Below, one piece after another: positions 8,501-57,658 of a stretch of 64,000 nucleotides of DNA (its first letter is position 1; the number at the start of each line of letters is the position of its first letter). This DNA is from Verrucomicrobiia bacterium (lineage in GTDB: Bacteria; Verrucomicrobiota; Verrucomicrobiia; Verrucomicrobiales; DEV007). Location: positions 496,001-560,000 of the forward strand of contig JAUIAH010000001.1 of assembly GCA_030425385.1 (NCBI GenBank). The letters run 5' to 3'. The notes under the pieces are model-generated. The model did not search any database, had not been told where the DNA came from, and saw only the letters and a program-made list of their open reading frames with translations. A program made the position numbers and the translations under genes.

Positions 8501-8794
8501 TCAAACCGTCGCCGGCTCGCGCATTTCCTCTTCGACGACTTGGAAATCCTCATCCTCCTCAAGGGGCGCAAAGCGTTCGGCATTGAACGACCGCTCCAGT
8601 CCGCCCTTGCCAAGTGGATTGTGCAGCTCCACCAGGGTGACCGCCACTTCTGGCTGAAGATTAAAGCCCTGGCCCGGCGCGATGTCACGAATGGTGTAGG
8701 TCTCACCCTCCTTGGGGAGCGCGACATAGTATTCCTCGATCCCCAAAGGAAACTTTCCATCAATGCACGCGACTTTCTGGCCCTGTTGAAGCAT
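8501..8794 (-). CDS. Conserved hypothetical small protein
   Basis: 97 residues from the ATG at 8794 (MLQQGQKVACIDGKFP). The pattern VACIDGKFPLGIEEYYVALP, then KEGETYTIRD, and later SFNAERFAPLEEDEDFQVV, belongs to a family of small basic-to-acidic hypothetical proteins that I associate with Verrucomicrobiota and related phyla. No function is known to me. It probably folds as a small beta barrel with an acidic tail. An in-frame ATG at 8812 is possible, but the shorter start fits the family better. The first 35 bp overlap the 3' end of the upstream membrane-protein gene, so the two are probably co-transcribed. Confidence 0.7.
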   Translation of the reverse strand: MLQQGQKVACIDGKFPLGIEEYYVALPKEGETYTIRDIAPGQGFNLQPEVAVTLVELHNPLGKGGLERSFNAERFAPLEEDEDFQVVEEEMREPATV

Positions 8795-9278
8795 GAGAAA
8801 GCGTCGCCGCAAGCGAGATAAGACGCAACCTGAGAGTGCCGTTTGAAGAATCGGTGACGTCGCCCCCTGAGAAGACTGGTTGGTCGTGCAGGAACCGTGT
8901 TTCAGTCAGGCGCATGCAGCTTCGTTGACGTGGAAAGAACAACAGACCGGGGATTCCAAATTTCAGCAGACCTAGAGCCGCCTGTGTCATGGTGTTAGCC
9001 TCCCCATCTCTGACCGCGATGATTCCGTAGGCAAGGAAGCCAACAAAGTAACTCAGAGCCAAGAACCGAAAGATCACGAACAAACGGGCTGGCCATTGCA
9101 AGGCTGCCGCCAAGGCGATCGGTACTCCCGCTAACAAGATCAGCAACAACTGGCTCCATGCATCTATCTCGGTGTGAAACTGGTAGAACGTCATCAGCAC
9201 CATTGCACTTGTCGCCATCAGAACCACGCTGATGAGAGGCCGCAGGACCGGATTCTTCCCGAAAGGGCGCCGATTCAT
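8760..9278 (-). CDS. Small integral membrane protein, hypothetical
   Basis: 172 residues from the ATG at 9278 (MNRRPFGKNPVLRPLISVVL). Four hydrophobic segments are visible: LISVVLMATSAMVLMTFY, LLLILLAGVPIALAAAL, FRFLALSYFVGFLAYGIIAV and a shorter one around AALGLLKFGIPGLLFF. A polar Arg-rich C-terminal tail follows. Not recognised. The frame is open upstream to 9551, but that part overlaps the continuation of the interrupted gene before it and is low-quality coding. The start lies 19 nt after the downstream stop (9298) of that interrupted gene, which suggests the two once formed, or still form, an operon. Confidence 0.6.
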   Translation of the reverse strand: MNRRPFGKNPVLRPLISVVLMATSAMVLMTFYQFHTEIDAWSQLLLILLAGVPIALAAALQWPARLFVIFRFLALSYFVGFLAYGIIAVRDGEANTMTQAALGLLKFGIPGLLFFPRQRSCMRLTETRFLHDQPVFSGGDVTDSSNGTLRLRLISLAATLSHASTGPESRVH

Positions 9279-9297: not shown

Positions 9298-10491
9298 TCA
9301 ACCATTGGCAGCCGGTGGGAAGATCTCCGCGCTGCCATCGCGGGCCTTGGCGGGATCGAGGAGTGTGGCGGGCGTGTATTTGGGGATGATGCCAGGGGTG
9401 GCGAGCACCGCACGTATCTGGTCAATGTCCTGTGGGTGCAGTACGGCAGACCATCTCCCCTGCTGATCCGTCTTGACCGCGCCAAGGGGCGCCTTCTGGC
9501 GGCCGTCGCGCAGGTAGATCTAGGTGTCTGTGATAAGATCGCCTGCTTCACTTAAAGCGACACCGCCGATCTCCTGGGATTCTGTAAGGGTGAACGAAGC
9601 CTGATTGGGAGGAGCGCCGTCGGGAAAGCGCTGGGACGGTGCCACGAGTCCATCCGCCGTGTGTACCCGAAGGGCGAGGTTTGTGCGGTCAAGGTCGACG
9701 CCGATGGGGATCTGCACACGGCCATTCGCATCCGTTTTGTAGGGTCGGTCTGGCAGATCAAACGAATAGTGCCGACCGCTAGCCCACACGTCCGCATCCG
9801 CTACGGGATCTCCCTTGGCGTCCGTCACCGTGACCTCGGTGAATTCACCCACGGTGAGGCCTGGTCCCCAGCCTAACTGATCGACAACATCGAGCGTATT
9901 CGGATCCCATTCCCAATTCATGAGGGTTTCGTAGAGTCTTCCTCCATAACTCATGTTGAGCACGATGCTCCCGTCGTCGTGATTGAAAGAACGGAGAATG
10001 GGAATGACATCGCCCCATTCCGCGCGTTGCACCTCTTTGATTTCTTCCCAGGTGCGGCCATCGCGAAAGACCGTGTTGCGAAACTCGAAGTTATAGCCTT
10101 CGCCTTCTCTGGGTGAATGCAAGTGTTCAGCATCCAGGTAGTCGGGAATTAAATCCTTAAGATCGGCTGGGAAATGTCCGGTGTCCTCCTTAAATTGCAT
10201 CAAGGCGCGATGAATCTGCACCATGTTCTCCCCATCAATCTGCTTGTGCCTCTCGGCCTCTGTCAGTGGGGGATCGGGCTCTGGCCCTAGTTCTTCTGCT
10301 AGTGCAGGTGCAGGCGTTGAATCCTTCTTGGACTGGTCGGGCAGAATCGAGACCGATCGCGAAGACGAAAGCGGACTCATGATCCCTTCTTCTTGGGTCT
10401 TGTTTCCGATCCAAAGCCAAAGAAGCGTGACCAATGCAGCACCCGAAACGAGAACAGCAACCCGACGCGGATTGAGTAGGAATTCCCTCAT
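9298..10491 (-). pseudogene. Carboxypeptidase-regulatory-like protein interrupted by in-frame TAG
   Basis: The reading frame starts at 10491 with a membrane anchor (VAVLVSGAALVTLLWLWIG) and a low-complexity linker. Then comes a region with HRALMQFKEDTGHFPADLKD, of the type seen after type-II-secretion pseudopilin helices, and a carboxypeptidase-regulatory-like domain (VTVTDAKGDPVADADVW, YKTDANGRVQIPIG). After residue 323 there is a TAG (9520-9522). In the same frame translation would continue without a stop for 73 more codons (IYLRDGRQKAPLG, then KTDQQGRWSAVLHPQ) to a TGA at 9298-9300. The continuation repeats the KTD-xxGRW pattern and keeps the GC-rich third positions of the gene. A Trp or Gln codon mutated to TAG, a sequencing error, or amber readthrough would all explain it. 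Confidence 0.7.
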
Positions 10492-56292: not shown

Positions 56293-57658
56293 GGGCCCCA
56301 CGGATGGTGGCGACGACGGCGTCATCTTGCCGAGGAAACACCGTGCGGAGATCAATGCGAAAGAGATCTTCCATGATGTAGCCCATGAGTGGCAGCGGCT
56401 GCAGGCGGAGGCGGTTGGCGAACTCGGGCGCCTTCCAACGATGCGACGACAGTTCCAGAGTGACCGAGGGAATGGCGGACTTGGGCATGGTGCCACCGCC
56501 CACCTGGGAAATGCCCGTTCCAATGGCCCAATCAATCGGAAGGTCTTCGAGTGCTTTGCCGATGGCTTCCGCGCGCGCCTGTAGGGATTCCATGGAGGTT
56601 TGAATCATCGTGAGAAGGGGCAAGGGAGCCACTTCATTGGCCGAGCGCGCGTCGAGGTAGCTTTGAGCGGTGCTCTCTAGCAGACTGAGAATGAGTTTAT
56701 CGCAGCGTAAGGCGCGAAAGAAGGGCTCTTTCTTCAAGCCGCGCACCAGGTCCGCGCGCCCGGCAATCATGCCGGCTTGAGGCCCGCCGAAGATCTTGTC
56801 GCCACTGAAGCAGACGAGATCGACCCCTCGCTTAAGGATCTCGTTAGGCAATGGCTCGTGTTCGAGTGAAGCTAACTGATCGGTATTCACCATGGCGCCG
56901 CTACCCAAATCCTCGACAAAGGGGAGATGGTGCTCGCGTGCGAGGGTCGCCATTTCCTCGGTGCTGGGAGAATCGACGAAACCTTCCATCCAGAAGTTGC
57001 TGCGGTGCACCTTCAGGAGCATGGCCGTGTCTGGGCCAATCGCTCTGGCATAATCCTCAAGAGACGTCTTATTGGTCGCCCCAACCTCGCGCAGGCGGGC
57101 GCCACTGGCTTCCATGATCTCAGGCACGCGAAACCCACCGCCGATCTCGACCAATTCGCCACGTGAGATGAGCACGTCTTTCTTCCCGGTGTTGGCGGTG
57201 AAGAGACGGAGAATGAGCACCAAGGCAGAGGCGCAGTTATTGACGACCGTCGCGGCTTCGGCATCGACGAGGTTGGCTAACAAATGCTCGAAGTAGCGCC
57301 CGCGTTTGCCGCGCCCTCCGGAATCGAGATCAATCTCAAGATTATTGTAGTTGGTGGCGATGTCTTGGAGACGCCCCACCGCGGACTCATCGAGTGGTGA
57401 GCGCCCGAGGTTGGTGTGAATCAGGACTCCCGTACCGTTGATCACGGGGCGAATGCGGGTCCGATCCATCTGGGCAAGGTCACGAGCAATTGCCCTGACA
57501 AAGTGATCGAAATCGGAAACGCCTTTCTTTGCGTCACGCTTGGCTTGGAGCGCGTCTCGCACCACTTGGGTGACGAGTGGACGCGGGATGGGTTGATTCC
57601 CCAGAGCCTTCAGCACCTTCTCAACGGCGGGCAACGCCCGGGGATTGGCGGCACTCAT
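56273..57658 (-). CDS. selA: L-seryl-tRNA(Sec) selenium transferase
   Basis: A PLP enzyme that converts Ser-tRNA(Sec) to Sec-tRNA(Sec) with selenophosphate. 461 residues, the normal length. Motifs: PVINGTGVLIHTNLGRSPLD, GGRGKRGRYFEHLL, VVNNCASALVLIL, REVGATNKTSLEDY, HRSNFWMEGF, VEDLGSGAMVN and the PLP lysine K288 in FSGDKIFGGPQAG. It predicts that the organism makes selenoproteins, but selB, selD and the Sec-tRNA gene are not in the window. Its start overlaps the preceding secreted-protein gene by 4 bp (ATGA), an odd partner. Confidence 0.95.
   Translation of the reverse strand: MSAANPRALPAVEKVLKALGNQPIPRPLVTQVVRDALQAKRDAKKGVSDFDHFVRAIARDLAQMDRTRIRPVINGTGVLIHTNLGRSPLDESAVGRLQDIATNYNNLEIDLDSGGRGKRGRYFEHLLANLVDAEAATVVNNCASALVLILRLFTANTGKKDVLISRGELVEIGGGFRVPEIMEASGARLREVGATNKTSLEDYARAIGPDTAMLLKVHRSNFWMEGFVDSPSTEEMATLAREHHLPFVEDLGSGAMVNTDQLASLEHEPLPNEILKRGVDLVCFSGDKIFGGPQAGMIAGRADLVRGLKKEPFFRALRCDKLILSLLESTAQSYLDARSANEVAPLPLLTMIQTSMESLQARAEAIGKALEDLPIDWAIGTGISQVGGGTMPKSAIPSVTLELSSHRWKAPEFANRLRLQPLPLMGYIMEDLFRIDLRTVFPRQDDAVVATIRGALTESPS

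Follow-up and report, generated by a model that had tools for sequence, protein, structure and literature searches.

The minus strand of the window (the whole 64,000-nucleotide stretch of DNA analysed here) carries a gene interrupted by an in-frame TAG codon, which is best explained, with a probability of about 0.74, as a recent nonsense substitution in an accessory gene. Before the substitution, the gene would have encoded 397 residues, counting the one lost at the stop, arranged as a probable membrane anchor, a helical stretch, and two CarboxypepD_reg/CnaB-like β-sandwiches. The codon with which the third strand of the second sandwich begins would then have become TAG, for which one G-to-A transition would be enough if the ancestral codon was TGG, as in the closest orthologue. 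Release factor 1 would terminate translation at this codon to give a 323-residue protein, in which the last domain would be left incomplete and probably unfolded. We infer that the stop is present in the organism, beyond the consensus sequence, and that this would be the fate of the truncated protein. The preliminary description had left the choice between amber suppression, a sequencing error, and a recent nonsense mutation, a frame that the present analysis supports, with mutation favoured over consensus error.

Gene Layout

The interrupted frame opens with an ATG at 10491 and remains open in the same frame beyond the TAG as far as a TGA (Table 1), through an extension that contains no Met codons. 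The TGA is separated by 19 nt (9297–9279) from the likely ATG of the downstream gene, which lies in the next frame; this ATG is our choice of start, the mechanically predicted ORF opening at the upstream GTG. A Pfam search with the downstream gene gave no match above cut-off. The coordinates of the TAG, the extension, and the 19-nt gap had been given exactly in the preliminary description.

Table 1. Coordinates of the interrupted gene and its downstream neighbour.
Feature	Position	Strand	Description	Basis
ORF before stop	9523..10491	-	323 codons; N-terminal hydrophobic helix, helical stretch, first β-sandwich, two strands of second	sequence and structure model of the G011 orthologue
In-frame TAG	9520..9522	-	aligned residue in 6 orthologues: Trp (n = 1), Arg (n = 5)	
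Extension	9301..9519	-	73 sense codons; predicted remainder of second β-sandwich and C-terminus	
TGA	9298..9300	-	stop of full-length frame	
Downstream gene	8760..9278	-	172 aa, hydrophobic; frame open back to GTG 9551	

Orthologues and the C-Terminal Extension

Orthologues were sought in 386 genomes of the order, a set sampled evenly from a larger group and containing the organism's own genome, using the orthologue from genome G011 as the query at E ≤ 1e-20. Seven matches were obtained, comprising that of the own genome, flagged with one TAG, and six from the 385 other genomes. The window protein by itself retrieved no relatives from genome contigs, and an alignment (A1) used as the query retrieved four loci. 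The closest of the six orthologues, that of G011, is 48.7% identical (187/384 residues) and is the sole representative of the same family; the others range from 34 to 44% identity. Two predicted proteins of 472 aa (L086 and L156) are identical in the last 130 residues compared and were counted as one, and the most divergent orthologue (L160) is 503 aa long.

None of the six orthologues contains an internal stop. The codon aligned with the TAG is TGG in G011 and an Arg codon in the other five (AGG, CGA, CGT, CGT, and CGG), which supplies the orthologue residue that the preliminary description had asked for at this position. The 73-codon extension aligns with the C-termini of all six orthologues and is identical to that of G011 at 29 of 73 residues; every orthologue reaches the same end, with that of G053 running past it by a further stretch. 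The orthologues continue through the TAG column to the same C-terminus, which shows that the extension is coding and that its 73 codons are the genuine C-terminus of the gene. The earlier impression that the protein continues logically past the TAG is thus borne out; orthologues ending at the stop, which were to have counted against it, were looked for, and all six that were found continue.

Predicted Domain Organization

The gene had been described as encoding a regulatory-domain protein, a label that is loose, in that the Pfam match is to CarboxypepD_reg (PF13620), a structural domain, with a score below the cut-off. The window protein scores 16.9 bits up to the stop and 21 bits when read through it, and the G011 orthologue scores 29.3 bits, so that both fall short of the curated cut-off of 32.3. 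The orthologue from G011 was modelled with moderate confidence (pLDDT 68.7, pTM 0.52); the model contains an N-terminal helix (residues 4–34), a second helix (79–105), a mixed region, and two β-sandwiches. The N-terminal hydrophobic helix is a probable membrane anchor, and the helical stretch of the pre-stop ORF may be pilin-like. Fold matches of the model in the PDB include pilin, CnaB-like, and carboxypeptidase-D-like sandwiches, mostly with low TM scores over the query; among them are CnaB2 (8bdw, TMt 0.56) and the NTE domain of SusC (9hfj, TMt 0.70), both likenesses being those of a moderate model. Profile similarity to CarboxypepD_reg and to Big_1 (PF02369) is likewise weak and differs from membership in lying below the curated cut-offs. 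A PADLOC search with the protein gave no hit.

In this moderate model, Trp337 of the G011 orthologue, the residue aligned to the TAG, opens a strand (337–342) that is the third of the second β-sandwich. Because the TAG falls at the opening of this strand, truncation would remove most of the second CnaB/CarboxypepD-like sandwich, and the first sandwich, together with the anchor and the middle region, would remain in the 323-residue product.

Constraint, Age, and Distribution

The sequence beyond the stop appears undamaged. The 73 codons contain neither a second stop nor a frameshift, and conserved residues are retained, although the lack of a second stop dates little by itself because only 17 of the 657 possible single base changes would create one. 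At the 12 usable post-stop columns where five other orthologues agree, two of these five being close relatives (401/426 residues identical), the window differs at none. Upstream of the stop (residues 80–323), it differs at 23 of 114 agreed columns, compared with between 0 and 4 in each of the others. The longer and most divergent L160 orthologue was left out of this count. With the G037 orthologue as reference, the window has 10 unique changes after the stop and G011 has 9; before it, the counts are 42 and 15, respectively. These counts suggest post-stop constraint without visible relaxation. The intact frame and the unchanged conserved columns, taken together, point to a young event, and the stop looks recent; at 48.7% identity, the closest orthologue is too distant for dating from synonymous sites. 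Two features expected of a recently nonsense-mutated gene are present, namely orthologues that are open at the stop and a post-stop sequence that is orthologue-like and undamaged. The strong divergence of the pre-stop region counts against the preferred reading, in that it may reflect a basal position, or else a relaxation that had affected the entire gene at an earlier time.

The matches indicate that the gene is patchily distributed across the order and accessory. At 1e-20, the search gave no match in any of the three other members of the genus that it covered. Of 73 further members of the family, G011 alone matches strongly, and 11 more have partial matches with E values of 3e-16 or weaker. 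Such patchiness suggests that loss of the gene is probably tolerated, and together with a pre-stop protein much more diverged than those of relatives in other families it perhaps reflects loss or transfer of the gene.

Possible Consensus Error or Minor Allele

A rather unlikely alternative, though the strongest of those considered, is that the TAG is a consensus error, or a minority or mixed-strain allele captured in the assembly, and that the organism's own gene is intact. The interruption consists of a single substitution with all else intact, in a genome of 74 contigs that is 95.5% complete, as such an error or allele would have it. Against this, none of the 157 family matches listed (84 sulfatase and 73 ABC-domain) contains an in-frame stop within the matched stretch, to which the count is confined, which argues that stop-making errors are rare in the assembly, even though such errors do happen. 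A methylation-linked base-calling error at a Dcm-type hotspot, which would involve a CCTGG site if Trp were ancestral, was considered and rejected, as the genome shows no depletion of CCWGG (observed/expected 0.976) and has fewer CTAGG sites than expected (0.838) rather than an excess of them. One C5-methyltransferase was found, on contig C67; its solved relatives include a cytosine methyltransferase, DNMT1, HaeIII, and HhaI, and they give no indication of its specificity.

At G000:C10:29292-30764, two sulfatase pieces corresponding to profile positions 151–301 and then 2–124 lie in an order opposite to that of the domain; these appear to be partial or rearranged genes.

Decoding of TAG

Were the TAG read through or suppressed at a low level, the gene would yield a long protein alongside the short one, with the long form still under selection. 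This is an improbable reading of the data, although the post-stop codons do appear unrelaxed and Belinky et al. (2021; PMC7918605) place many in-frame stops of bacterial genes within frames of dN/dS below 1. The same study describes most such stops as short-lived, and none of the six orthologues has the stop in common with the window. A more specific and even less probable form of the idea is that the stop is tolerated and partly read through, with a near-cognate tRNA decoding it in the absence of dedicated machinery, and so sets the ratio of a one-sandwich (short) to a two-sandwich (long) anchored protein.

TAG is a stop in ordinary use in this genome. The gene for release factor 1, prfA, is present (471.7 bits, cut-off 423.25), and the 598 ORFs of at least 300 aa end in 269 TGA, 176 TAG, and 153 TAA codons, so that neither loss of RF1 nor avoidance of TAG as a terminator is seen. 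Extensions of 40 codons or more with a coding-like score (0.2 or higher) occur after 20 of 281 TAG (7.1%), 20 of 431 TGA (4.6%), and 25 of 252 TAA codons (9.9%). Genome-wide amber readthrough was rejected on this ground, the value for TAG lying between those for TGA and TAA at the thresholds tried. Nine candidates passed a filter whose overlap rule left out the TAG gene at 9520-9522 itself, and which hence gives no census of interrupted genes. Five extensions and three cores among them were inspected piecewise; since each core covers almost all of its own main domain, none of the three represents a gene interrupted within a domain. Neither a recoding signal nor an unusual fold was seen in the RNA surrounding and following the TAG (z 0.15).

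A further TAG lies on the minus strand at L089 8084-8374 (G000:C55), where an almost complete DegT/DnrJ aminotransferase ORF precedes the stop and a piece matching the tail of a second DegT domain (profile 272–359 of 360) comes after it in frame. The second piece is likely the remnant of a duplicate.

No tRNA with a CUA anticodon was found among those examined, and the window contains no tRNA genes. ARAGORN reported no CUA anticodon over the 42 loci that hold RF00005 matches, or over 110 loci in total (90 calls, with overlaps). RF00005 matches listed number 62, with 150 of 213 candidates scored. This survey is incomplete, in that the RF00005 search missed at least one tRNA found by ARAGORN (L041 9203-9278) and the genome is 95.5% complete. 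Several tRNAs of a cluster on contig C38 that ARAGORN missed were read by eye and include no CUA anticodon, the single CUA-like hairpin there being the antisense of a Leu tRNA. Pyrrolysine decoding likewise finds no counterpart here, as the best PylS match scores 29.1 bits against a cut-off of 178.15 and most control genomes also have sub-cut-off matches. Recoding is therefore unsupported, and the amber suppression raised in the preliminary description finds no support, given no CUA tRNA among those examined, no PylS above cut-off, the presence of RF1, and the ordinary use of TAG.

The C38 cluster is of note in its own right. It comprises about 25 tRNA or tRNA-like genes (L041 7132-14805; G000:C38, about 43.1–50.8 kb), and directly follows a match to the GOLLD RNA (RF02032, model 1–416 of 416) whose 91.2 bits fall short of the gathering score of 150. 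Within the cluster lies a gene for a 593-aa VWA-type protein, in which Pfam detects a weak VWA and no TROVE and which may be Ro60/TROVE-like; ThiF, SPFH, and HNH genes adjoin the cluster. One of its tRNAs (L041 8986-9071) matches the tRNA-Sec model at 32.5 bits, below gathering, and has a loop read as anticodon UCU, giving an Arg anticodon on a Ser/Sec-like body.

Selenocysteine is inserted at UGA. The preliminary description had rightly excluded it here, the codon being TAG, and had correctly noted selA in the window; the gene lies at 56300-57640 on the minus strand (490.6 bits). A tRNA-Sec is encoded at G000:C41:75455-75544 (65.1 bits), and with both genes present the organism probably makes selenoproteins.

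Extension Length and Gene End

The length of the extension is by itself unremarkable in this genome. In-frame extensions of at least 73 codons follow 170 of 964 mechanically predicted ORFs of at least 150 aa (1.63 of 8.01 Mb), after 64 TGA, 54 TAA, and 52 TAG stops; it is homology to the orthologue C-termini that takes the present extension beyond chance expectation. Its codon score (0.25, compared with 0.19 for the pre-stop ORF) is only the 32nd highest of the 303 extensions with 40 or more codons. That TAG is the old end of a shorter gene, with an open frame beyond it by chance, is scarcely credible, since equally long extensions do arise in those 170 ORFs through chance or a following gene but the 73 codons here match the C-terminus of all six orthologues found and, in the moderate G011 model, the stop interrupts a domain that has reached only its second strand.

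Comparison With Known Systems

The preferred reading, a recent nonsense substitution, adds one more young lesion in an accessory gene and carries little weight in itself. For annotation, it would make the locus an interrupted gene rather than a complete 323-residue protein. Orthologues, stop usage, the tRNA set, and the release factor jointly tell a broken gene from recoding.

Pyrrolysine and other amber-recoding systems share with this gene an in-frame TAG with coding sequence beyond it. The present case differs in having no PylS above cut-off, no CUA tRNA found, RF1 present, and TAG as a normal stop. Another parallel comes from Belinky et al. (2021; PMC7918605), who describe in-frame stops as widespread in bacterial genes and mostly short-lived, with readthrough suggested for many. 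That study used stops common to two or more species, whereas the stop described here is seen in one genome only. The likeness lies in an in-frame stop within an otherwise intact frame, and the present stop fits the short-lived class.
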